The position numbers and the translations under genes are program-made. From the NCBI GenBank assembly GCA_037576195.1, contig CM075103.1:8990001-9054000 (forward strand): DNA of 64,000 bases. The letters are read 5' to 3'. Positions 13,652-55,408 of the stretch are shown piece by piece; the stretch's first letter is position 1, and the number at the start of each line of letters is the position of its first letter. The notes below the pieces were generated by a model. That model made no database searches. It was given only the letters and a program-made list of their open reading frames with translations, and was not told where the DNA came from. Origin of the DNA: Phytoseiulus persimilis. Its lineage: Eukaryota; Arthropoda; Arachnida; Mesostigmata; Phytoseiidae.

Positions 13652-16600
13652 ATGCCAGTGACAGTCAAAACGAAGCGGTCGGGCAGGCTAAGTCGGGGCG
13701 CAAAAAGGAGCCGTCGCAAGAGGACGACAACTTTCGATCCTATCAACGCTCTGAACCAATCATTCATCAATGTGGGGATCGCATCGCTTTCGAAGGGAAC
13801 CTATTTCGTACCGAAGAAAGCTCTAGCCTTTGCCGATTTTTCACGGCACTGCAAACTGCTGCACAAGAACAAACACCTCCTGCGGACGGAGTTCATGGTG
13901 AGTTCCTTTCCCGGATTATGAATATCGCTTTTGTTCCACCAAGCTAGTATCGCAAGCCTCTCTTGACCTCTATCTCGAAAACTCGAACCCCAATTCCAGT
14001 TGGCAACCAAAGCCGATGTCCACTCTCAGCGGCACGCCAATAAACCGGCGAATGATCTTAAGAATAGTTACAAGAAATTACTGCCATGTAAGTGTTTTCG
14101 AAATCCTCGGAGTCGGGTTCCAAAGTTGGCTACGCGTGGGGATAGACCCGAAGCTTTTGGAGCTTTTGGATTGTAGCACTCCCGCGGGGCTTAGAGCGTG
14201 TCTGCATGAAGCTTCCTGGCGAAGCGACAACTGGGGCGAGTCTCTGACGTCTCCATTTCCTTAATCCGCTCGACCGTCAACCCGTTCACCCGTCGAATCC
14301 TTTGTTCCTCAGTGGGATAGTTTGTGAGGATCCGAGTCCTTCGAAGACTCACGCGCAGGGACCCGAATTAGAAGCACACAACGTGTCTCGAACCCTACTC
14401 CCCGACCTCCTCTCTCCTATTTTGCGTAGAAATTGACTACTTGTCGACTACTTGAGAGATGAGGAAGCTCAACTCACGCCGCGTAGTAGTTCTGCGTCGG
14501 TGAGAACTCGGAGACATATTTTGAGCGGATGCTGATTAGTTGCAAGATGGCGTCTCTGGGACCGAACCAATTTGCACGCGTCATTTGGACCGCTCGGCCA
14601 TCTTTTGATCGAATGTAGGTTTGTCCGAACGAGTTTTTTTTACCTTCTAGACGACTACAATAGGGTTGTGTTGTCCACTTTCGATGATCAGGAGGACTCG
14701 GATTACATCAACGCAACATACATCGACGTGAGTTTCAATATTTCTGAGTCGCGGCGGGACGAACATCTACCGCGAGCCGAGCGCCCGGAGCTCACTCTGG
14801 AGTGTATAATCAAACGCAATTCGAACCCGCTGGGACTCACAAACCATCTCTTCCGTTCACAGAGCCTTCTTCGACCAAACGCATACATTGCTGCCCAGGG
14901 TGAGTTTTAGGTATCGCGACCTTGAGAGGAAGACAGACGAAGGTTTGGGCACTCAGATATCGGAATGGTTTCTGCTCCGAGATCCAAACGGAACATCACA
15001 CTGGGAAAGGATCGCGTTCCGAGAACATTGTTTACCGGAGCACAAGCGCTATCTTGGTTCGTTGCGAAAATCCTCCATTCGGTACCCGAGAACAAGGACT
15101 CGGAGGAACAGAACGATTCTCGAATGGCAACAGAATTGCTTCAGATGAGCGGGAGGATTGCCGCGATCAAATAGAGCCACCGTTCCCTTGGACCGAGTTG
15201 TGGTTTCGAGGCAGGATCGTTAACGGTCGGTGGAAATTCCCCCGACCGTGGACACAAGGCTTCTCCTCTCATGTCGATGGGAGTTCGACCTGGAAATCAA
15301 ACAAGCTGCGACCGGGACCTCTGCTCCGCACTCTACTGACGATACACTGGGAAATATCGGACTCGGAGGCTCAGCTATTTCGCTTCCGTCGGAACCGGGG
15401 AGAACCGTAACGAACGGAAACCCTTCGTGTGGCGTCTGACCACGCGGCGATTGCCGAGAGAGAAAAATGACTTCTGCGTGAAGACGCTCCTCCAGCACAT
15501 TCCAGGGAACGGCTCGATTCGGTAGCCAATGATCGGAACTTGAAGCTTTATTCTCGAATTGAAAACCTGCCTAACTTCAGCGTTTTGATTCTTTTGCCTC
15601 GAAGGACCCAACGACGAAACTGTAGCTGACTTCTGGCGGATGATCTGGGAGAGCAAAGCCTGCGTGGTGGTGATGCTGACTCGGGTGTTTGACTTCGTCC
15701 GGGTCATGTGCACCCAGTACTGGCCCACAGAAAATCGTAGGGTAGTCGAACACGGTAACATCACGATCACTCTCATACGGGAAGACACGTTAGCCAACTT
15801 CACACTGAGAGCTCTCTTAGTGAAGCAGGTAGGAGGACATCGAGGTCGGAAGCCCTGGCTTCCGTTGCTCCCGCGGAATAGGCCTGCGCAGACTGTTAAA
15901 ACCGGTTTCTCCTCTCCAGGGAACCGAACAGCGGCAAATTCACCAATTCCACTTCACCAACTGGCCGATCCACACGCAACCGTTCTCGAACGCGTTGCTG
16001 GATTTCCGCCGCAGAGTCAAGGCCGTGTGTCAGCAGTATAACTCATCAGCCCCTCTCATCGTACACTGCAGTGATGGCTGCGGCAGAACCGGTACTTACC
16101 TGGCCATCGACGCGAACCTGGAGCTCGCCGAGGAAGAAGCCGTCTACGACGTGTTGGCCTACCTGAGGTTGTTACGATCCGCTCGCAAAGGCATGGTCGA
16201 ATCAATGGTGAGCGGGAGCGCGTTGATTTCATACGAAGTGGAAGCTCCAGCTCGAACAGCCCGGGAAAAACTTGTTTTGAGTCCGCCATCGTGGCGCGCG
16301 CCCGAGGAGCCTCGGCCCTTTTCCAAGCTGCCGCTATCTCCCAAATGGATCGCTCCGTGAAAACGTGCTGTCAAGCAACACGGCTCGTGCTATCGTCCTG
16401 GATCAGGGAACGCGGGGAGAATATGGAAAGACCCGGTTTGTCGGAGCATACTGCGGATTGATTCGATGCGGTGCGGAACGCCGGGAGGTTGTGACCCGGC
16501 GGCGCTGGCGGAGCAGTCTCCAACAACGACTGAAGATGTTGATGACAGCCGAAGCAAAACGTCGAGATGGATTGTGCGCAATGTCGAGGGAGAGTGAATC

Positions 16601-27941: not shown

Positions 27942-29276
27942 ATGAGTCGCTCCCACCGCCCGGAGCCGTCGCCCACGGTTCCGGTTAGGAGGAATTCGAG
28001 CGGGCGCGGGAGGAGTTCGACCGCCAGAGGGAACGTGCAGGACGGTTCGCTCGAGTCCGGGGAGAACGCGACCCGTCAGCAACGCTGGAAGGAGCAACGA
28101 GTTTTCCGCAACGGAGCCACCATTATCTCTGTGAGCAGTTTCTTCTTGTCATGCTGTGCCGCCCTCCAAGCTCCTGTGATGCCCGCGGAGATTTCCAGGA
28201 GGAAGCTCCCCAAGTATTGGACGAGCGTCATTTTCATCGCGTACTGGGTTGTTCTGGCGGTTGTCACAACAGCACTCTACCGCCGGGCCTTCAGATGCAA
28301 GACTGTGCTGCTGTGCGGCTCGGCGCTGGTCGCCGTCTCCGTGGTCCTGTTCGGGGTCCTGGAGTTCCTGCCGTGCGGCCCCGGCTTCGTGTTCCTGGCG
28401 GTTCTGCTGCGCTGCGTCGAAGGTGCCGGCTGCGCGATGTTCCACGACGCGAGTGAGAACTACATCCGATTCCACTTCGAGAGCAAGAGGTCGATGTACC
28501 TCGGCGCGAACCAGAGCCTCTACTTCTTCGGGTTCGTGTTCGGCCCCATCCTCGGCGGGATGATTTTCAGCGACGCGTCGTTCTGCACCCCGTTCTTCGC
28601 CGCCGGCGGCTCGGTGCTCATCTGCTTCGTGACTTTGACGTTCGTGGTGGACAAGCACTGCCTCGAGGACCGGCTCACGGTCTCGACCCTGAGCTACACC
28701 GCCCCGTTCAGGCTGTCGACGTTCCTCTTCGTCGTGGCTGCGTCCACGTGCCAGGGCTTCAATCTGTGCACGATGTGGTCCCTGCTCGACGGAACCCTGA
28801 AGCTCCCGCCGCTGGCCATCGGAGGGATGATCGCAATGCCTGACATCGTGAACTGCCTGGTGAGTCCGGTCGTCGCGCCGTTCGTCGCCCCGGACTCGTG
28901 CTTGCCGATGGCGATGTTCTACGCGGTCGGGACCGTTCTGATCTCGGCGTCTGTTTACCTCACCGGGCCGGGCTACCCGGTGAGCCTGACTCTCGCCGCG
29001 AGTGTTCCCCGAGTGAGCCTCTGCCTGCTCGGACTCGGAGTCGGCCAGTGTTTGCTTCTCACGGCCCCGCGAGTCACCCAAGCGGGAACGCTGAAGCCTT
29101 TCCACACGGCGTTCTCGCTCGTGTCCGTCTGGGCGTTCATCGGATCGACGTTGGGAGCTTTGCTCTCCATCCTCAGCAACGGCGTTCTCGACTTCCATCT
29201 GGGATACACAGTCAGCGCCGCCGTCTCAGCGGCCCTGGGCGGCGCGGGCATCGCGAGCTTCTTATTGAGGAATTAA
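27942..29276 (+). CDS. Intronless MFS transporter, SLC18-like (VMAT/SLC18B1 group)
   Basis: A single uninterrupted frame of 444 codons from ATG 27942 to TAA 29274-29276. The first about 55 residues are hydrophilic and Ser/Arg-rich, probably a cytosolic tail. After that come about twelve hydrophobic segments in two groups separated by a short polar loop (VVDKHCLEDRL), the usual MFS plan. The segment RCVEGAGCAMFHDASENYI followed by LGANQSLYFFGFVFGPILGG resembles the TM4-TM5 region of the SLC18 family of proton-coupled vesicular amine/polyamine exporters; SLC18B1 is the nearest relative I can suggest. Substrate cannot be read from the sequence. Third codon positions are strikingly G/C-rich, which also creates a 349-codon antisense open frame at 28149-29198. 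Unlike most neighbours it has no introns, so it may be an old retrocopy or have lost its introns. Confidence 0.8.
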   Translation: MSRSHRPEPSPTVPVRRNSSGRGRSSTARGNVQDGSLESGENATRQQRWKEQRVFRNGATIISVSSFFLSCCAALQAPVMPAEISRRKLPKYWTSVIFIAYWVVLAVVTTALYRRAFRCKTVLLCGSALVAVSVVLFGVLEFLPCGPGFVFLAVLLRCVEGAGCAMFHDASENYIRFHFESKRSMYLGANQSLYFFGFVFGPILGGMIFSDASFCTPFFAAGGSVLICFVTLTFVVDKHCLEDRLTVSTLSYTAPFRLSTFLFVVAASTCQGFNLCTMWSLLDGTLKLPPLAIGGMIAMPDIVNCLVSPVVAPFVAPDSCLPMAMFYAVGTVLISASVYLTGPGYPVSLTLAASVPRVSLCLLGLGVGQCLLLTAPRVTQAGTLKPFHTAFSLVSVWAFIGSTLGALLSILSNGVLDFHLGYTVSAAVSAALGGAGIASFLLRN

Positions 29277-42110: not shown

Positions 42111-45004
42111 TGATCGGTTGCTGGCCGGAGAAACCTTTATCAGAGTTATGCGATCTTGTAGGTACGATTTACTAGTTACTGAGTGCGAAAATCGGAAAGA
42201 TCGAACTGTCCACTGGCTGTTCGGAGGGAAGCCATCCCAGCGTCGGGAGATTCATCATTCCTCAACCGAAGATCGAGCTGGAATCATGCACAGATGAATG
42301 CGTCGGTGAATACCGTTCGGCCCGTGCATGACGTGCTTCACGGAAAGTGAATCCAAAGCATTATTTCTCACGGTGGGGGTGGGGTTATCCCATCGGTGGG
42401 TCGTTGGCGGATTTGCCCGGAAGCACGGACTCCGACAACGGGACGGTTGGATACGGGTCAAAAAGTAGGGACGAAACGCTCCCATTCGAACACCTCGAGA
42501 GCTCCGGCCGCGCCCGGGGATCGACAATTGCGCGTTGCTCAGCGCCTGGCCGCCTTTTGTGCATGACAGCTCTTGTTTATCACCTCTGATGTATTTACCT
42601 CCGATCTCTCACGCAGACTCTCAGTGTGCGAAATAGAATTGCTTTGGACAGGCGCGGCTTCCGAGAAAATTCATTAGTGGCCACCGTGACCTAACGTGCT
42701 TTTGATTTCTTGAAAGCCTCTACGTAACAGTGGGCCAGCAGCAGCAAAATGAACACTTTCGTCCAGCAAAGCGCCCGCAGCGCTGTGGAATTAGTTACCA
42801 CTCGAGAATGTGATGAATCATCATGGGAGCGTGTCATGACGGTCAGAAGTGGGTCAAAAGAAGGCCAGCGAATAATGCTCAGAGAATGGTCCGTGGAAGA
42901 AATATCACCTGCTGTTTCTAGCAGATTCGACAGTTTGGCCGAGGAAGCGACCCGCTTTCGGAATGAAATCCCCGCTATCGGGCGATGAGTGAAAGCGCTC
43001 CTTCAGAGACGGGAGTGAGTAAATGGGAGCATGAGGAACTGAGAAGACACCTCGATTTTTCTCGTACGTCCGTTAGATGTGTCTTTTTTGCATGAGCATT
43101 TGGTTCCGCGCGAAGTGGCAATCGAGTTCACTTCCGACGGCTTCGTCTGAACCTCAGCGACTGGAAAAAAAAATGCCCAGAGCGATCGGCTCCGGGTATA
43201 CCAGCATGGAAGCTAATTAACGGATTATCGGAAAATCTCTGAAAAAGTTAAGGTGGGGAGAGGCTTGGGGAGTCGGGATCGAAAAAAAAAAACACTCTCG
43301 AGCTGTGTCGAGCCTACAGAGAGTCGAAAACCACGGCTTCCTCATGTATCACAACGGTGGAGGAAGCTCTTCGCTCGCCCTAGCGAGAGCTGGGAACCTC
43401 CCAACAGAGTGTTATAATTATTTCTTATTGGCCGTCCCGGACATAATATGCGATGTGGACTTCACCTCGGAAGACTGGCCATGTGATCCTCGGATGCAGT
43501 GAATTCTATTCGATAGTTCAACAGTAAAGACCTGGCTGCGCGCATCGGCCTTAGCAGTGGGCTGAATCGTACATCGGTGACCACGAGAGTGCGGCGACTT
43601 CTCGAAGTATGGGAACGCTGCAAAGAAGTATCTGCTGAACATGCGCGCGCCTGGATTGAGAGTGTCATTTGTGAAAACACGAATCAGTAACAATGAACCA
43701 CCCGCCTCATAAGGTCGGCCCGGCTCTCTGCAGGCTTAGCCAGGGTCGACCGCTTGCTTTTGAGAGTGGATGAGACGCTGATGGGGGAATTTCGAATATC
43801 AGTGAGCTTGGTTCTCACGCACAACTCAGGATATCACCCCTAGATCCCGACGAACATCGGCTGCGAAGTTCCATAGTTTTGGCCTCCGGCCTGATCAGGT
43901 TCGCTGAATGTCAGAGCACGAATCCTTGACTCTCGGTCAAAGGAGTCAGGAGACTGTTCGCTTCATTTTCGTGGCTCGAAGCCTGGAATTTGGAGCCGGC
44001 AGTTGGGACCCTCAGGGCTGCTATGCTTGTTTATTTCCGTTGGAGGATACGCCAATTTGTTGCCATTCCCGCCCCGGGCGGCAATAGTATGGTCGGCCAA
44101 AGGCATAGGCGTGAGATGCGTCCCCTTCTGCATGACGTGGAACCAATCAGGAGCTCAGCTTACGTGCTGAACCTTTCATGCAAAGGAAAGCAGGAGTGTT
44201 CTTGCGTGAAAAGTTGAACGCTCAAAACTACATGTTTTTGAAATCACGGGTTGCACGAGCATACCGATTCATGAGTATGCTGAAAAATGTAACTTTTCCA
44301 ATGACTCTTCGAAGCTGTGTTGGATGTTAAATAATAAACTTGATGATCGCGGAGCCTTTCGTCGTGTCCGGTTTATTCATACACCTGCTCCGCGTATTCT
44401 CAACACATTCAACTTCTCACTACTGCATGAACATTCACGCTACCATCATGACATTGTGCGAAGAAGATACCCAATCCAGTATTCTCGCGGAATGGTGCAA
44501 AGAGGATGACAGGAGCGTATTTAGTGAAGTCCGACACAGTGCGACAACTTTAGGCTCCTCAGCAGTCGCACGAGTTTGGAACAGGGCAGGCGCTCTCCAC
44601 ACTGCGCGACGAGAGACAGCTCGAGAGCAGACGATGCTGCTTATCGTGCCACCGGTGAACGTTTCAGTGAACTGAACTCGAGTGTTGCGGAAGAGTCCTC
44701 GAATTTAGTGAATTTACCAGGGGCGCCCGTAGCTCGACCGTCCTCATCGTGTTTTTTGTAAGTATTCCGCCCCACCTCTTGTGAGTGAACAGCTTTCCGT
44801 TCGACTCGCCCTTATTCCATGAGCTCTGATGATGAACTTATGAGACTGCCGCTCTCTCCGCGAGGCACGTGCTCAAGACTTCGGTGCGAAAAACAACGGT
44901 CAACGCGTTCGTGGCCTATCTCAAGTGTTCCGAACCGTTCAAGAGACATGCATTCGTCTAACAAAGACAAATGAATCATTCAAACACAGAGCAAGCTTGT
45001 CGGC
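42111..45004. other. Intergenic stretch, no gene recognised; ABCB8-like upstream block at its end
   Basis: Short open frames only (for example 42749-42988 and 43305-43502, plus), none recognisable. From about 44620 to 44700 the sequence resembles the region upstream of the full ABCB8 gene (51695-51745), sharing GAGCAGACGAT and CTTATCGTG followed by CCGGTGAAC. Confidence 0.55.
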
Positions 45005-46029
45005 ATGATCCTCTCTACCCTCGGGCGATCTCAACCCGCTATGCAGTGCCTCCACTTCTCCAGGTCGGTTGCCGGATTATATTTTCGTTTCGAGCTCCCT
45101 CGTTCTGAATATAACGATTGAAAAAGGTTAGCGTGAGAAGACTTTCCAAACCATGCGAAAGTGACGATTCTCATCCCGTAACAGGCTTTCACTGAGCCTG
45201 AAGTTCGGGAAGAACAACTGCGTCCGACCTAGACAAGCTGTCTCACCTACTGTCCGACTCCTGTCGGGAGCAGCTTTCAGCGCGGCTCTCGCGCACAGAA
45301 GTCTGAGGGTCGGCGTAAGTTTTCACTCTCCAAAGATTCAGACAGCCATGATACTATAATGAATTCGAGAGGATCAGACGGGAGATGGAACGCTCAGAGA
45401 ACATTTCCCTCCACCGCAGATCGCGGAGTGCGGACCGAGGACGACCAGAGTACTTGACGGGGAAAGGAACTTAGCCAAAGGATGCTCTGCCCTTGAACTA
45501 CTCTTGATCATACTCAAGAATGAAATGTTCCCCCTGCTCGTCGCACTCACGGTGAGTCCGAGCCATTTGATCGAATGCGCAACACCAAGACCCTTGAGTA
45601 CGTGACTTTTTCTTCTGAAATAACGCTCGTTGTTCCCTCACGAATCCGGCAGAGCGCTCTCCTGACAGCAGTTTGCCATGCGCTGATGCCGATTTGCGCC
45701 GAGGAGGTCATTCCGGCGCTGAAGATTTTCCTCTGGAATGGACGTCTGCCTCTGGAAAGCGTCCATGTTCCCGCGGTCCGACTCGCCGCTCTTTGCGTCG
45801 CCCATGTAGGTTATTCGATCCCCCTCCTCGTCGCTGTCGCTGCTCGAATGCACACGAAGCTTGTGTTGAGTGGAATACTCTTTTCACTCGACAATTCCGG
45901 ATCCCGCAGATCGCCTGTACGTCGGTGTACGTCGCGAGCCTTGCCGTGGTGTTCAGAGATGCGTCAGCCCGGTTGAAGCAAGCAGGCTCGACGAGGCGAA
46001 GATGGGAGCAATCCTCGACGAAACCCTAA
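45005..46029 (+). CDS. Truncated ABCB8 paralogue lacking the nucleotide-binding domain
   Basis: Five exons: 45005-45063, 45185-45314, 45420-45551, 45653-45805, 45910-46029 (TAA); 594 bases, 197 residues, all in phase. Each exon pairs with one of ABCB8: exon 1 59 bases in both, exon 2 130 in both, exon 3 132 versus 129, exon 4 153 versus 159. Introns sit at identical positions and phases. The product starts MILSTLGRSQPAMQCLHFSR (full gene: [20 protein letters not shown]), so a mitochondrial targeting peptide is retained, then SPTVRLLSGAAFSAALAH and the first two core transmembrane segments. In exon 5 homology ends at SARLKQ. The next +1 frame then reads AKMGAILDE, matching TKTGAIMNV of ABCB8, so a small deletion and frameshift created the early stop. 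No NBD exon follows. It is either a decaying pseudogene or a short membrane protein; the undamaged frame and splice sites despite marked divergence favour the second. Confidence 0.65.
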
Positions 46030-46298
46030 GAAACGACTAGGGCTTCTCAATAGATCTCAAAGATGCAACTGTCCAACATCGACGTTTCTTCCTGATTTGT
46101 GATTGATCGATTCAAGAGAACGATCTGATATCATATTCGGGAGAGGCTCTCTCTTGGAAACACGACGGTGATGCGAACCATTTTACCTTAATTCATCTTT
46201 TATTTCAAAACCAGAAATATATTGCGCCGAATCGATTCAAGCTCGATCGACACCTTCAGCGACTTCCACATGGGTCCAAACGGATGGAGCTGCGCAGA

Positions 46299-46304
46299 AA
46301 TAAA
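46299..46304 (+). promoter_or_regulatory. Possible poly(A) signal of the truncated ABCB8 paralogue
   Basis: AATAAA 270 bases after the stop codon of the truncated copy. It would allow a complete short transcript to be made. Confidence 0.35.
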
Positions 46305-47545
46305 ATGTTTGTCAGGGTTTGCTTGTCATTCTTAGCGAGAAGGCTTACAGTTGCCCAGAAGGGAATGGTTTACGTGAATTAGGCGGACGCTCAAGTTCCT
46401 CGCTCAAAAACGGTACCGTCGCGGATCAGTGACGATTGGCCTGATCTGAAGGAACTGAGGTGCCCGTCCGTTCTCGTGGTGTGCCCTCGTCGACTCGGGC
46501 TATCCAAAAGCGTCATCAGCGCCAATCCAAGAAATCGCGGAACGAGTCGGGCCTTTTTTTGTGGCCGCACCATGGGCCACTCTGTTCCATTCTGTTGTGA
46601 GTGAAGACCAACGATCGCCAGGCGCATCCAGCAAGCGATGTTACAGTTGCCGCGCACACGAACAAAGTAGCATCGCGCACGCTTGGCCGTTGGCTGATTT
46701 TTCTTCTCAAGGCTTCCTTTCCCTCTCTCCGACAACAGCGATGCCGTCCGCTGTTCTGACCATTCGCTCTTGGCAACGCTCAGCGCGTCACAAAAAGTTT
46801 GCTCAAGCAGCCAGACACCATGTGTCTCCGGTGAGTTCGCTACAAGTTCGATTGCTAGATCTCTTCTTCGAATCCCCGGTAGTTTTCAACCCTTGGTGAA
46901 CACTCGCCCTCTTTCACCCCTTCCACTCGCGTCAAGTACACGTGCGACTCGCGAACCGACTGACAGCCCACATCAAATTGTCAGCGGCAGACCACGGGGA
47001 TACCGGCCGCCAGCTGATCGACTAAAACTTCTCTCCGAACCCGATTCGACTAAGTTTCTAAGAAGAGTTCTGAAAGCAATCCACTTCGAGTTTTTTTGAA
47101 GAAAACAACTGAAACTTCCCGACTACACAGACGAACTCGCCGACGTCGATGAGTCGGTCCCTCCCGGAGACCATTGAACGGTTTCTTATTACGAACAGCG
47201 TCGCCTCTGAGGCTCGATGACGACTGCCCTGCCAATGAAAAGAGCCGAGTTCATCTTACGGCTTCCTCTCCGCGAGACAGTTTCGGGCGCTCGCATCTCG
47301 TCGGGAATGAATTCGGAGTTTACGAAAGAAATAATTCATCGCCTACAGTGGCCGGCTCGAATGCGAGACTCTGAGCACCTGAGAGAGCTGGGTGGGGTTC
47401 GTAAAGATAGCTCCTCCTGTCGTGCGGCGTAGTGCAAGAATGCAGGAAAATACCCTGAAAGTAATTTCTGTCTCATCACAACATCAATTCATCCTTTTCC
47501 AGGGTAGGGCTCCTGTCTCGCGGCGCAGGCATGCTCAAATGAACC
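46305..47545. other. Intergenic stretch between the ABCB8 copy and POGLUT2/3
   Basis: No gene or repeat recognised. Several overlapping short frames on both strands (for example 46391-46735 minus, 46561-46899 plus) look like chance. The promoter and 5' leader of POGLUT2/3 must lie here. Confidence 0.5.
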
Positions 47546-49842
47546 ATGATGTACCTGTCGGTAGGATGCCTGGCGGCCATGGCATTCGTTGTGGCAGCGG
47601 ACATTCCGCGGGCGTCTGTGTGGGGGCCTGGACTGCGAGGTGGATTCGTCCTGCCTGTGAGATACATTTTCATACAGTTCAACGATGAGAAGGACCAAAG
47701 GTTAGATTGAGCTGAAATTCTCTCAGGAACACCAATCACCTCTGCTTCAGAGCGTTGTGTTGCCACACCGAAATCGCAAGCATTGGTATGCGTGGTGGAA
47801 ATCGTAGAAATCGATTGAAAGTTGGTTCGTTTCGGAAATGGACAATTATCTGAAATCTCGCTCTTGACTCCCATCGTCATTCCCAGATACACGAACATGT
47901 CTATTGATTCGGTCAAAGTGGAGTTACGCTCAAAACCGTCCGGAGCAATCAAAGAGTATCAGTATGATCTCCTGAGGACAGCCAATGACCCCTCCCGTCT
48001 TCTGTTTCGATTTCGTCCCCATGCCGCTCATGAAGGGGACCTCGTCCTGACTGTGCTATTCGACAATCAAGAAGTCGTCTCCGAGATAATCAAAGGTGAT
48101 TCGATTGAGTTTTCGAAGATTTCGCTCTCCTACATCCGTCCAGGCTCTTGAGTCTCGGTTCAGTAACTGTTGGTTCCAGCCAGGATAGAACTCGTTACTT
48201 TCATTCACAGGTCCCATGGAACCGGAAGAATGCGACTGCCCCATAGGTATTCAACGGTGGCTCGTTGATGTGGCGAAATGTCCGAAAATCAGCGAGCAGA
48301 TCCTGAAGGACCTCGCCCACTTCTCAACGAGCAAAGTTCGGCCGAATTACAACCGCGAGATCATGAAGAAGTATTACGACCAACCGTATTCCGTTTCGCT
48401 GTGCAACTACGTCATCAAAAGCAATAAGGTCTACCGCAAGTGCCTCGGGGAATACACAGGATTCAAGATGTTCGTGGATAGCGTCCTCCTGAGCCTTGTG
48501 CGGAAGGTCAGCTCAACTTTCACGGCAGCCTTCCTGTGATTAGCATTCGGACTTTGCGCGATTCATTGAGCCCCGCCTCGCAGCAATTATCATGTGGCTC
48601 GATAGGGAGTATCATTCACGGAAGCTACAGCTTGAACTTTTCCTCACAGGTCAAGCTGCCGGACGTTGATTTCCTGGTCAATCTCGGGGATTACCCCTTG
48701 GCGGGGAAAACCGAACGTCGCTACTCACCCCAAGTGCCAATTTTCTCCTGGTGTGGCTCTGAGGATTCCTTGGATATTGTCATGCCGACTTACGAGCTGA
48801 CCGAAGCTTCGGTTCATATGATGCGACGAGTCGTTGTTGATGTACTCTCGGTTCAGGTGATTCGATTTTGTCCTCTCCCCGAGTCGAAGAAGTCGAAGGG
48901 CTTTACGCGTCTACGGTTTCCATTCGATTGGATCCTTTCAGCCGTTCCTCTAATACTCATTCATCTATTTCACTCGGTTTAAGGATCGCGCCAGCCAACC
49001 TTTCTCGGAACGACAGCACAAGGCGTTTTGGAGAGGACGGGATTCCCGCGAGGAACGACTGCGTCTCGTCGAACTTTCTCAGCGTGATCCTCAATTGCTC
49101 AACGCTTCAATTACGAACTTTTTCTTCTTTAGGGACAGAATGGAGAAATACGGAGGCGGCTCACCGCATGTGAGCTTTTTCGACTTTTTCGAGGTAAGAC
49201 GGCGTTTCTATCCGACTCTGAGACTTGACCCCGTGCTTCGAGCATTTCGCTCCTCCCTGCGAAACAGCCAGCGCTGAACCGAATCGAGCCAAAGTTTCCA
49301 ATTCCAGTACAAATACCAGATCAACATCGACGGGACTGTTGCCGCCTACAGGATGCCTTTTCTGCTGAGTGGGGGCAGCACGGTTTTCAAACCCAAGTCG
49401 ATATTTTACGAGCACTTCTATTCACTGCTGGAGGAAGATGTCCACTACGTGCCCGTGCACTCAGACCTGTCGGACCTTTTGCCAAAAATCAAATTCTGTA
49501 TCGCTAACGAAGATCATTGCGCTCAGATCGCACGAAACGGTCGACAGCTCGTCAACGACGCGCTGCTTCCTCACCACGTGTACTGTTACTACGTCCAGCT
49601 CCTGCAAGTTAGTGGAAAAGCTCCAGGAATCTATCAGAGAGCGAGGGTTCTCGATTCTGGACGTTTAGTTTCCGTCTAGAGTACATCAATGGTCTGATGC
49701 TTTCTGATTATGTATTTTTGAACTTCAGGAATACTCAAAGCTCATCGAAGGACCAGTGGAAATTCAAGAAGACATGGAATTCGTTGAGCACGCCCAGGAG
49801 AGCGTCTGCAACTGCCCTGGTAGAGCAAAGGATGAACTGTGA
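47546..49842 (+). CDS. POGLUT2: Protein O-glucosyltransferase 2/3 (KDELC family)
   Basis: Seven exons: 47546-47700, 47887-48095, 48211-48506, 48650-48856, 48984-49193, 49308-49607, 49729-49842 (TGA); 497 codons, phases agree. The family transfers glucose from UDP-glucose to serines in EGF repeats of proteins such as Notch and fibrillin, in the ER lumen. Residues 1-18 form a signal peptide (MMYLSVGCLAAMAFVVAA). A filamin-type repeat follows (SVWGPGLRGGFVLPVRYIF to about residue 122), then the CAP10 glycosyltransferase domain with ECDCP, LPDVDFLVNLGDYPL, PIFSWCGSEDSLDIVMPTY, KAFWRGRDSREER, VSFFDFFEYKYQINIDGTVA and STVFKPKSIFYEHFY. The protein ends KDEL, the ER-retrieval signal. Length matches vertebrate POGLUT2/3 (about 500). 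Which vertebrate paralogue is closer cannot be decided by eye. ATG 47546 is followed at once by a second ATG; either may start. Confidence 0.93.
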
Positions 49843-49986: not shown

Positions 49987-52087
49987 GCATGGAAAGTACC
50001 AAAGATTTTTTCCGCTCGCTCATTACCTCAGAGACTCTTGAAACATACATTTTGCTCGTTTCTAGTAAGGTTCCGACAACCCCGAGTCGAGTTCATCGGA
50101 AGATCATTTCTTGTATTTACCAAGCCCCGCTCCTTGCCCCGGCTTGCTAGAGATTCAACCTGCTAGTTCGAGATGCGGTTCAGCCGGACTTTTCTCTATA
50201 AGCCGTACTTGAATCCGACGGAACTTATCGACGAAGCCAGACATGAATTCCACAGTATTCGGCGTGGTATATCCGGTGCCAAGCTCTCGAGAGTGACGGG
50301 GATTGGAGCTCGCGTACGCTTGCTCACCTTGAATGAACATCCGAAACCGAAAGTTCGTGAAAAGCGGTGGCTTCCGTGTATTGATCGTCCAATCCCACCT
50401 TTGAACGTGCATGAGACATATCGTACTGCACGAACTCTAGCGCTTTCATGATGATCACGGGAAGATGAAATGAGAGATAAGAATTTTGGTATTGCCTGAA
50501 TAGGGAAAAACGACCTCCAGCGGAACGTTCTCGACTCCATTGCGCTTCAAAAACGCTCAGGAAGCGGACATTCAATTTGTCAAGACAGCGATGCCGCAGG
50601 ATAAATTGACGCCTCTCCTTGTAGGACTTTCATCCAATACCTATCGGAGCTCCTTCTTTCCCTACATCTCTCGCTATCGCCTTAACTGTACGCCTACGCA
50701 ATCCTTCCTCCTCTCTCGCTAAGAGCTGCGTCGAACGACGGGCATTGAGAACTCTCAATATGTGGAATCACCAACTTTGCAAGGAGCCATGGAATCGAGT
50801 CCCGTTGGCTGCTCAGCAGGTCCAAGTATCAACTTCCCTCATGTCCTAACTTGCTGCACCCTCCAATCTAAGACTCATGTTTGAGTAGTTGATCAACAGT
50901 GGGAATTTTGGTGTTTTCAACCGATGTCACGGCTGCATCGCTCGGTGCGATGATGAAAGACGTTCAGAATGAGATGATGGGAGCCCGAACCTCGTTGGAA
51001 ATCGTCCTCTATGGTGCGTTTCCAAGACTAGCTTGCTGAGTATGCTTCCAGAATGGGCACGCTATACTCTCGCCGAACAGTCTCGTGCCTGATTGATCCG
51101 AAATCAAGCCATGGCGGAATTTCATCGGCACTCTTCAAACTTAGGGAAAGTCCTATCGGGTACTCGGCCTAATCAGATCTTCTCAGAGGTCTCCGGGTCG
51201 CTGCAGCAGGGTTTAACTACAGATATGAACCTTGATCTCCATGTAACGTCCGTTACTCCGTCCATGTAGCGGCGCCGTTGCCGAGCGGTCAGCGCGATTC
51301 CAGAATCGTTCAGCACATCGCGAGCTTGGACAACAACGGTTTTTCTTACTTGGAAAGCTCACTATCCGAGCTGATAATGAATACCACGTCAGGGCAAGCA
51401 CTAACTCCTATCATTTGCTCGAGACGTATGCATGTGCCCTCCAGATTTGGCCTTGTGCATATGTCAGTCGCCTTTCCCTCGGACTCTACGTAATCAAGCG
51501 ATGACAATTCATCTTCGACGGCAGGTCCCGACTTCCCGCGACGGAAGGCGATACAAGAGGAAGGGAGTTTGTGAATGAAAATGAGTCGACAACTACTACA
51601 GCCCCTATTCAGCAGCATGGAGAGCGTGCTCCTTTACTCAGCTGCTGTTTTCTTTCAGTACCAGCTGATCATGAAGCATTGAGAGAGGGGAGGGCAGCAG
51701 AGCAGACGATTCTACTTATCGTGTTGCCGGTGAACAGTTAAATGAACCTAAACTTCAAGGTCCGAGAGATGATAAGGGTTCGGGATTGAGTAAGTTCCTC
51801 AGCGAAGATCGAAATCTTCTAGAACTTTCCTGACGTGCTGTTCAGGTGGGCTTCGCAATTCCTACGCTCGTTGTGGAAGTAAGCGAACCAATTCCACCTA
51901 GTCGCCAATGTTTGCATGCGAAGGTTGAATGGTATTTCTTCTCTCTCTATGGAGGCCGTCCGCGCAAGAGCTTGTGCATCAATCCTATAGATTGATATAA
52001 TAGTTGTGTGGCTCTGAGCATGAACAGCGCGTTGAAAAGAAGAGTAAATAGGATTTCAATCGTATCCGCGCAGTTCCAACGTTCAAC
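49987..52087. other. Intergenic stretch upstream of ABCB8
   Basis: No gene recognised. The block 51695-51745 resembles 44620-44700 upstream of the truncated ABCB8 copy and may be shared promoter or leader sequence. Short frames at 50173-50451 (plus) and 50196-50540 (minus) overlap and look accidental. Confidence 0.5.
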
Positions 52088-55000
52088 ATGATTTTCTCCA
52101 AGCTCGCGCGATGTCAACCTCTGGCGCACATACTCCGCAATCCTAGGTTCGTTGAACTGAGAAGCTTGTATCGATATCACAAATCTCTGTTCCGATGATT
52201 TGATACAAGCGACGTGATATAATTTTTGGTGCGTTTATGATTATACGTTAACTTTCCTGCGCAGAGTCACTGGACGTCGAAATTTGACGTACTCCGGAAG
52301 ACGTTCCATCCGAGACCCAGTATCTCTCACCGTTCGGCTTCTCACAGGAGCGACCTTCAGTGCGGCTCTCGCGCGGAAAGCACTCAGCGTGACAGTGAAT
52401 ATCTAATTTGAAAATTTTCGAGAAGATTACGAATCGGAGATTTTTGGGCCGAACCTCTAAGAACAGTATTGTCCCTGTGAGGTCGTAGACTGCAAGAAGA
52501 AGACCAGGGTGATTGAGAACGCTCAGGATGGGCCGAGGAAGGACTTTGATTGGAAACTGTTTTTCCATTACCTCAAGAAGGATTGGTTCTTCCTACTCGT
52601 CGCGGTCACGGTGGGGAGAAAGATGTTTGGATCACTCGAATCGCAAAATACTGAAAACTGCCAAGTCCGATATCCTTTTTCGCCGCAACTATGCTAACCG
52701 ATTGCGTACGCGGCTCGCAGACAGCCCTGCTGACCGCAGTGTGCAACACTCAAATTCCTATCTATCTCGGGGACATTATCACTGTACTGACGGATTTTCT
52801 ACGCCACGATGCTGAGAGGTCTTTCGTCGAAGCAGTGCACATGCCCGCGATTCGGCTCTTTGCTCTCTACGCTGCACAGGTGGGTTCCCCGGTCTCCGGA
52901 ATTCATTGAATATTCCGAGCAATTCTGAATTCAAAATCCTGAATTTCCACAGAGCATTTTCACGGTGGTCTACATTTCGACCCTAGCCCATGTGAGCGAG
53001 CGTCTCTCTGCTCGCCTGAAGGAAGACGTTTTCAAGTCTGTTCTTCGTCAAGACATTTCGTTCTTCGATCGAACGAAAACTGGGGCTATCATGAACGTGA
53101 TCAGCGGGGACGTTCAGGATTTCAAAAGCTGTTTCAAATCTTGCGTTTCTCAAGGACTCAGAAGCTCCGCTCAGGTGAGCAGCCGGGGCTCGCGTCTCAC
53201 TGTTGGACTCTCAGATAGAGTCAAACTCGAGAGGAATGCAGATCTATCAGAAGAATCAGATATGAAGAATCGCGAATCCTCCATCAGACGGTCGATAGAT
53301 ATCTCGGACACTCATGCTCCTCTCCGCAGGCGATCGGCTGCATTTTCTCTCTGTACAACATAAATCCGAAAATGACCGGACTCATGTTGGCTATAGTGCC
53401 GCTCATCATGGCTATCGGGACTGTTCTTGGTGCTGGTCTGAGGAAAATATCTATTGAGGCCCAGATCCAGGTGAGAACGAATCGATCTCGCATTTGCCTT
53501 AGATACTCACTCGATGCCTCGATTGTATGCGTCGGGATCCTTGATTCCAGGAGGCACATGCGGCTGGTGTCGCCGATGAAGCAATCTCCAACATTCGAAC
53601 CGTGCGCGCGTTCGCGATGGAGGACTCTGAAGTCAGTTTGGTTCATGAAGAACTCCAGAAATCGCAGCGGATCCATAGTATTCTGGGGCTCGGCATCGGT
53701 GGTTTCCAGGTGAGTGAAAAACTCAATTGAAAGGAGCGCCGTTTCCGACCATGGTCTCGGCTCCTGACGTTCGACATCAGCGACTTAATAGAGCCTCTAT
53801 TCCTCCGTCTCCAGGCCTTGACCAACCTCGCCCTCAACGGAATCGTTCTCGGTGTTTTGTTTGCTGGCGGGAAATTGATAAACGAGGGAGAGCTCACGAC
53901 CGGAAACTTGATGAGCTTCATGGTTGCAACGCAGATGATTCAAAAGTACGATATTAATCGCATCAGAAAACTCAGTTGAAAGCATATATGAATGGGGCCG
54001 GTTGAAATACACGATTTTGAGCTGATAGCCAGTGTGCCGCATTGAGAGCGAAAAAACGACGAGTTCGAGAGAGCATTATCGGATGCGACTCCGAGCTCTG
54101 TTGTGCGAGTTCGGCAGCTGGCCCTGGGTATGAGCCAAACGATGGAGGACTCTTCACATTCTCTCTTGGCGGAAACTGACGCTAGGAATCCTCCGTACCA
54201 GATCTCTTGGCCAAATATTCCTGCTCTTCGGCCAATACGTAAAAGCAGTCGCCAGCGGGACCCGGGTCTTCGAGCTCATCAAGCAACAGCCGCTGATTCC
54301 GCTCAAGGGAGGAATCACAATCGAGGATTCAACGCTGGCCGGTGAGGTTCGCTTGCGCAACGTGACTTTCAGCTATCCAAATCGACCGGGACAGAAAGTT
54401 CTCGACAACCTGACGATTGCCATCCCTCCCGGGAAAGTTGTCGCGCTGTGCGGGGCTTCGGGATGTGGGAAAAGTACGATAGCGGCTTTGATCGAAAGGT
54501 AAGTGCTAGCATTCCGTCCTCCGTGAGCGCATCAGTAAATCCTGAAACTCATTGAGAGTCTGCGTTCCACTTGTCGCGCCTGATATGCGACTTAGCGGAG
54601 TGTTCCTGAATGTTCCCAGGTTTTACGACGTGCAAGAAGGCGAAGTCTTGATAGACGGGGTTAATATTCGGGAGCTTGATCTGGAATGGCTCCGAGGTCG
54701 CACGATCGGGATGATCTCTCAAGAGCCGGTGCTGTTCGCGACTTCGATATTGGAAAACATCCGATACGGGAGGCCCGGCGCCACCGACAGCGAAGTGATG
54801 GAGGCCGCAAAGCAGGCGAATGCTCACGACTTCATCATGGATTTCGAGAATAAATATGACACGGTTCTCGGAGAACGCGGGGCTACCGTGAGCGGCGGCC
54901 AGAAGCAGCGCATAGCGATCGCGCGCGCTCTCCTGAAAAATCCGCGGATCCTGATCTTGGACGAAGCCACGAGCGCTCTCGATACACAGTCGGAGCAGAT

Positions 55001-55408
55001 GGTTCAGCAGACCCTCGACCGGATAATCAAGGGGAGAACTGTCCTCATCATCGCGCACCGTCTTTCGACCATTCAAAAGGCTGACATAATCTACGTGGTC
55101 CAACACGGAAAGATAATCGAGGTGAGTCCAAATGTTTATGACCAAGATCTGCATCATTACCATTGGGCAAAAATCTTTCGAGTACCGGAGTCGAGCGTCG
55201 GAGGAACGCCCCCGAGCCATTCTAGGAAAGGTTGGAGCATTTCTAAGCCCCCCCCCCCCCCCCCCCCCCCTTCCCCCAGAGCGGCGACCACCATACCTTG
55301 ACATCGTTGAAAGGAGCTTACTGGCGACTAACTCAGGACGCTCGCGACGAGGAAAAAGTGAGGGCTTCGGAAACGCAAAGTAAATCGTTCTTCAGGACTG
55401 CTGGTTAG
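52088..55408 (+). CDS. ABCB8: Mitochondrial ABC transporter ABCB8
   Basis: Eleven exons: 52088-52146, 52265-52394, 52482-52610, 52721-52879, 52953-53174, 53330-53470, 53551-53709, 53815-53945, 54202-54498, 54620-55121, 55280-55408 (TAG); 686 codons, phases agree. ABCB8 is a half transporter of the inner mitochondrial membrane, acting as a dimer; it is linked to cytosolic iron-sulphur maturation and to the mitochondrial KATP channel. The N-terminus [20 protein letters not shown] is a basic, acid-free targeting peptide. A leading hydrophobic helix ([17 protein letters not shown]) and the family landmark [11 protein letters not shown] precede the transmembrane domain, which includes [11 protein letters not shown]. 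The NBD is complete: Walker [10 protein letters not shown] (461-469), Q-loop SQEPVLF, signature VSGGQKQR (566-573), Walker [13 protein letters not shown] with catalytic Glu 591, and switch His 622. Intron 1 uses an unusual GTTCG donor. Intron 10 ends in 23 consecutive C. Confidence 0.95.
55248..55270. repeat. Poly-C run of 23 in the last ABCB8 intron
   Basis: Twenty-three C in a row, followed by TTCCCCCAG and exon 11. It is placed exactly as the polypyrimidine tract of the acceptor site. Such runs mutate in length readily. Confidence 0.9.

Follow-up and report, generated by a model that had tools for sequence, protein, structure and literature searches.

A truncated ABCB8 duplicate in Phytoseiulus persimilis with a constrained reading frame, possibly retained as a two-helix mitochondrial protein

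Truncated copies of ABC transporter genes are usually classed as pseudogenes. Within the window, the 64,000-nucleotide stretch of the Phytoseiulus persimilis genome analysed here, five exons at 45005-46029 (+) mirror exons 1-5 of a full-length ABCB8 gene in order and splice phases, which raises the question of whether this copy is likewise a decaying remnant or still encodes a protein under selection. In the reading that we favour, with a probability of about 0.5, it would be a retained gene whose two-helix, likely mitochondrial product does something other than pump. The copy and ABCB8 are laid out as follows.

45005-45063, +: exon 1 of the copy, 59 nt, MILSTLGRSQPAMQCLHFSR, last codon split, donor GTCGG; ABCB8 exon 1 is 52088-52146, with the same length and phase
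45185-45314, +: exon 2 of the copy, 130 nt, containing VRLLSGAAFSAALA; ABCB8 exon 2 is 52265-52394
45420-45551, +: exon 3 of the copy, 132 nt, in which the first hydrophobic segment begins; ABCB8 exon 3 is 52467-52610
45653-45805, +: exon 4 of the copy, 153 nt, in which the first hydrophobic segment ends and the second begins; ABCB8 exon 4 is 52721-52879
45910-46029, +: exon 5 of the copy, 120 nt including the stop, with the second hydrophobic segment; ABCB8 exon 5 is 52953-53174
46299-46304, +: AATAAA, a possible poly(A) signal, the sole one in 46030-47500, which could be chance
52088-53174, +: ABCB8 exons 1-5; the first eight exons match human ABCB8 (7EHL)
53330-53945, +: ABCB8 exons 6-8, the rest of the transmembrane domain, missing from the copy
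54202-55121 (borders approximate), +: putative ABCB8 nucleotide-binding part, read from ORFs by its characteristic motifs, missing from the copy

Splice phases are identical between the copy and ABCB8 at each junction (0-2, 2-0, 0-0 and 0-0), and the exons measure 59/59, 130/130, 132/144, 153/159 and 120/222 nt (copy/ABCB8). The preliminary description of this DNA, which had proposed a short paralogue with an intact frame, was right about the matching phases and order, exons 1 and 2 being equal in length as well, and about the odd first donors, GTCGG in the copy and GTTCG in ABCB8, both of which are present. It was also right that neither a stop nor a broken splice site precedes the final exon: GT/AG is intact at 8 of 8 exon borders, and 197 codons are open up to the first stop, a TAG at 46027-46029. 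Its exon indels stand for exon 4, which is 6 bases shorter, and fall for exon 3, which is 12 bases shorter (144 to 132) rather than 3 longer. In donor strength the two genes score alike on a matrix built from only 10 donors, two of the four donors in each lying below the 90th percentile of all GT sites.

Homology of the copy to ABCB8 is above chance. Protein matches between the two reach E 7e-10 and 9e-7, and the DNA match scores 68 bits, where the highest-scoring of 30 shuffles reaches 26.8. The same residue is encoded at 76 of 180 aligned codons, an alignment that omits from the 197 the last 15 codons of exon 5, which are out of the ABCB8 frame, and two codons opposite gaps. By exon, identical residues number 28/61 in exons 1-2, 13/44 in exon 3, 24/51 in exon 4 and 11/24 in the in-frame part of exon 5, whose last 15 codons lie outside the comparison. 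Over aligned exons and introns together, 356 of 622 bases are identical; for the introns taken separately, shuffles equal the observed score in 17, 30, 4 and 10% of cases in the four comparisons. Exon sizes, phases, order and sequence all point to descent of the copy from an ABCB gene.

The first eight exons of ABCB8 encode 381 residues, which match ABC_membrane at E 3e-50 and human ABCB8 (7EHL) at E 1e-72. The copy had been called a tandem one, and both loci do lie in the same window on the same strand, but they are not adjacent: a GT90 gene at about 47546-49842 (+) intervenes (PF05686, E 2e-25, from two joined exons), which by our reading ends in KDEL and presumably resembles POGLUT2/3. Had a larger segment been duplicated in tandem, pieces of GT90 would be expected upstream of the copy; a search for them gave as the best of 12 matches at E<=1 an unconvincing 17 residues (E 0.006). 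Against the whole genome (181 Mb, 127 contigs), the copy's protein finds seven matches, five being its own exons and two ABCB8, and no further copy at that protein-search sensitivity. As for a second ABCB8-like remainder elsewhere, three of four genome matches are ABCB8 itself, and the fourth, 33% identical, lies within an open frame of 637 codons on contig 3 that is presumably another ABC gene; the candidate was set aside. Just past the last long ABCB8 exon stands a run of 23 C's (55248-55270, +), probably in an intron, which could be an assembly or slippage spot.

Similarity between the two loci extends to a short element upstream of each.

44600-44678, +: upstream element of the copy, 405 bases 5' of the ATG, with the core GAGCAGACGATGCTGCTTATCGTG; 60/81 identical to 51677-51754 (E 2e-8)
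51677-51754, +: matching upstream element of ABCB8, 411 bases 5' of the ATG, placed by alignment to the copy's element

The cores are identical at 31 of 36 positions, for which the chance is 3e-7 at one substitution per site and 4e-4 at 0.6 per site, uncorrected for the choice of place. Both elements contain the inverted repeat ACGAT-N7-ATCGT (44631-44647 and 51706-51722, +), perhaps the site of a dimeric factor. A 24-base core pattern, itself derived from the alignment of the two elements, matches exactly nowhere in the 181 Mb but in these two elements; the pattern read backwards, as a control, gave no match. Two further genomic sites carry 2 and 3 mismatches; the two-mismatch site, on contig 1, bore no evident relation when read and was treated as chance. 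When the genome was queried with the 85-base element, the sole match was the element itself; a search that overlooks even its ABCB8 counterpart is too insensitive to count relatives. Since the element is shared, the duplication included the upstream region. At both loci the element seems to have been retained, and we infer that it may form part of the promoter. The element was also considered as a structured RNA and rejected, with fold z-scores of -0.48 and 0.27; Rfam gave no match in the 64-kb window.

A gene fragment duplicated together with its upstream region recalls human ABCC6P1, which has lost the NBD part of its parent. ABCC6P1 is reported to be a 5' copy with promoter and nine parental exons, followed by a new last exon (10) unrelated to the parent; it is transcribed, and its knockdown lowers ABCC6 mRNA (PMC2329642). 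It is the nearest described case that we found: like ABCC6P1, the copy consists of the 5' part of an ABC gene with introns and, given the shared element, with its upstream region. The copy could then be a transcribed pseudogene whose RNA acts on ABCB8 mRNA, as proposed for ABCC6P1, with which it has in common the truncation and an upstream element kept in both copies (PMC2329642). We regard this as doubtful, because an RNA role needs neither an open frame nor the third-position-biased changes, raised GC3 and hydrophobic segments described below, and because the large divergence from ABCB8 (the 356/622 given above) makes long cross-pairing unlikely. Exons 1-9 of ABCC6P1 are 98.3-100% identical to the parent, in contrast to the 76/180 residues of the copy, and ABCC6P1 is treated as a transcribed pseudogene, whereas the copy's frame shows constraint.

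At its 3' end the copy is, as had been proposed, NBD-less: its 197 codons stop short of that domain, for which no convincing match occurs in 43000-47540 (best E 0.7), and the later ABCB8 exons have left no convincing remnant in the same interval, which includes 1.5 kb downstream. Within exon 5, beyond SARLKQ, the frame of the copy departs from that of ABCB8. Counted by hand, the difference from ABCB8 agrees with a net loss of 34 bases, and ABCB8-like residues persist in another frame (45870-46037, SRLDEAKMGAILDET), about ten of these codons (DEAKMGAILD) resembling ABCB8. Automatic DNA alignment does not contain this tail, and tblastn aligned it elsewhere in ABCB8 (E 3). The earlier proposal that ABCB8 homology ends by a frameshift thus agrees with the hand count, but the alignments did not recover the tail; the frameshift is plausible, and the tail, being short, is only suggestive. 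Relative to its parent, then, the copy is truncated, with the 34-base loss of the hand count in exon 5 and an intact frame upstream of it, and its C-terminus looks like a frameshift product.

Out-of-frame residues past the exon 5 loss, which are seen by reading and missed by the alignments, would be expected in a recently dead paralogue, that is, a longer, fast-evolving working gene that suffered the 3' loss and the exon 5 frameshift late, the rest having not yet decayed. The little selection found in exon 5 (see below) fits such a history, and the lack of a convincing remnant of the later exons in the 1.5 kb downstream speaks against it. Taken with the evidence from constraint and from the ABC signature that follows, we consider it unlikely, though not to be dismissed lightly.

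Whether the frame has been under selection was examined by comparison with ABCB8. Differences fall at first, second and third codon positions in 67, 68 and 112 of 180 codons, and GC3 of the copy is 129/197 against a GC of 206/431 in its introns (p 5e-5); GC3 of ABCB8 is also above its introns (139/238 vs 157/373). In a branch model, both branches were assigned equal synonymous lengths, because the copies share one genome and one age, and omega of the copy was fitted on a grid. The best dN/dS for the copy's branch was 0.3-0.5 with the omega of ABCB8 set from 0.2 to 0.03, 0.6 being nearly as good at the low ABCB8 settings. The dN/dS against ABCB8 that the preliminary description had suggested as a check is therefore not near 1 for the copy, omega 1.0 being worse by 4.4-6.8 lnL. 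With the ABCB8 omega fixed at 0.1, the fit improves on neutrality by 6.0, a gain that 0 of 600 neutral simulations reach (three branch lengths with 200 runs each, put through the same realignment; largest 5.64). A mixture of 35% of codons at omega 0.02 and 65% neutral beats a single omega by 4.0 lnL. These omega figures are rough because dS is near saturation (2.1 pairwise).

Across the range of settings, the gain over neutrality is 1.9-13 lnL in exons 1-2 and 4.5-17 lnL in exon 4, and 0-1.8 lnL in exon 3 and 0.2-3.4 lnL in exon 5. Exons 1-2 and 4 carry a clear signal of constraint, exons 3 and 5 a weak one or none; selection on the frame, as first proposed, is upheld in that coding constraint goes beyond neutrality (omega 0.3-0.5; 0/600), but exons 3 and 5 show little or none of it. 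Identical residues also tend to cluster, with p 0.15, 0.05 and 0.008 by three statistics, which is only suggestive.

The best-fitting branch amounts to about one synonymous substitution per site. When the present coding sequence was mutated under an assumed indel/substitution ratio of 0.15 to 0.05, neutral survival of the start, the frame and 16 splice bases was 0.8-5.7% at 0.05 substitutions per site and 0.007-0.36% at 0.1. Given this low survival, a branch of about one substitution per site and introns scoring little above shuffles, it is unlikely that the copy spent more than about a tenth of its history free of constraint. It is possible, judging from these simulations, that it lost coding constraint within the last 5-10% or so of the branch, and recent death draws support here, the intact frame being compatible with about 0.02-0.05 neutral substitutions per site. 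Neutral decay of the copy since the duplication is rejected. An ordinary unprocessed pseudogene, neutral from the duplication on, would agree with a copy that is truncated, frameshifted relative to its parent (by the hand count) and devoid of an ABC signature; the omega fit, the 0/600 simulations, the frame survival and the hydrophobic segments all go against it, and we hold it to be highly improbable.

This constraint is not accompanied by a recognisable transporter signature. Searched against Pfam, the whole copy has no match at E<=1, and against PDB chains none at E<=10. In the ABC_membrane (PF00664) test, its membrane part finds no family at E<=10, whereas the same stretch of ABCB8 scores 1.3e-6; that stretch reaches 4.6e-12 against PDB, where the copy again has none at E<=10. 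Among residues common to ABCB8 and human ABCB8, 15/34 are kept in the copy, compared with 29/65 of the others (Fisher p = 1; of 101 alignment columns, the two with gaps are excluded). The losses include ABCB8 W92, K93, N120, Q122, G128, E180 and R181, and the kept residues are mostly hydrophobic. With no ABC signature and no preferential keeping, pump constraint has therefore probably been gone for most of the copy's history, and on its sequence the copy is not an ABC transporter at present. A full-length transporter that had died only recently should have kept its ABC residues, but 19 of the 34 shared positions are changed, at the same rate as elsewhere, and the ABC signature is not found.

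The two hydrophobic segments score 1.93 and 2.03 in the copy and 1.79 and 1.62 in ABCB8, so that neither has become less hydrophobic than its ABCB8 counterpart. Both are kept in only 0-0.9% of 1500 neutral simulations at each of eight settings, for which the ABCB8 of today served as starting sequence in place of the ancestor. The first 63 residues of the copy contain 0 acidic and 9 basic residues; 3-10% of neutral simulations are also acid-free, and the acid-free N-terminus would thus be weak evidence of constraint, while the net N-terminal charge, equalled in 12-44% of neutral simulations, is uninformative.

In exporters of this kind, TM1-TM2 packs against TM3-TM6 of the partner. The hairpin of the copy might replace the same helices in the ABCB8 dimer, or in a potassium channel formed with CCDC51, reported as a co-channel with ABCB8 (PMC11668171), and so lower or tune activity. 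The same compartment is expected for both proteins, both hydrophobic segments are kept, and the common upstream element suggests co-expression. Such an interface would, however, need the residues that the species' ABCB8 has in common with human ABCB8, and because these are not preferentially kept, action on ABCB8 is possible and not favoured; we think it quite unlikely.

In the preferred reading, that of a retained two-helix protein, the copy would be an old duplicate of the ABCB8 5' end and upstream element that is transcribed and spliced and encodes a protein of 197 residues. Its basic N-terminus would direct this protein to mitochondria like that of ABCB8, and the two hydrophobic segments would form a helical hairpin in the inner membrane, both compartment and topology being predicted. 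Because it has no nucleotide-binding domain, the protein cannot pump; unable to bind ATP, it would most likely work as a small membrane protein whose role has shifted away from transport. In a more detailed history, the copy arose already truncated, together with its control region, and was released from pump constraint immediately, while selection preserved the presequence and the two-helix hairpin; its product would now act on its own in the inner membrane, perhaps as a subunit or brake of ABCB8 or the mitochondrial KATP channel. We offer this history as tentative and, taken as a whole, rather unlikely.

Compared with the ABCB8 orthologues (human 7EHL/5OCH; spider mite tetur17g02000, PMC3724490), the mitochondrial half transporters that form its parent family, the copy is without TM3-TM6, the NBD and a detectable ABC signature, its exon structure being common with the window's ABCB8. 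The same source describes nearly all ABC fragments and pseudogenes of the spider mite Tetranychus urticae as not expressed (PMC3724490), which, by analogy, is a fair prior against function of the copy. In the literature, where subscription papers were thinly covered, no NBD-less ABCB8 paralogue appeared in the titles and abstract openings among the matches listed. The product of ABCC13, a truncated human ABC protein, lacks NBDs. A mitochondrial splice variant, SUR2A-55 (PMC10146620), was also considered and is not drawn on here. Coding constraint with no sign of pump constraint would be unusual in a truncated ABC copy, and it is the combination expected when a piece of a transporter becomes a new membrane protein. 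If expressed, the copy would offer a compact case of how mitochondria can put an ABC transmembrane fragment to new use, and it might naturally regulate ABCB8.

Elsewhere in the window, an uninterrupted ORF at 28074-29273 (+) belongs to the major facilitator superfamily (E 1.5e-14) and runs for 400 codons without an intron, unlike the other genes read in the window, and a tyrosine phosphatase domain (PF00102, E 1.8e-23) lies at 15833-16357 (+).
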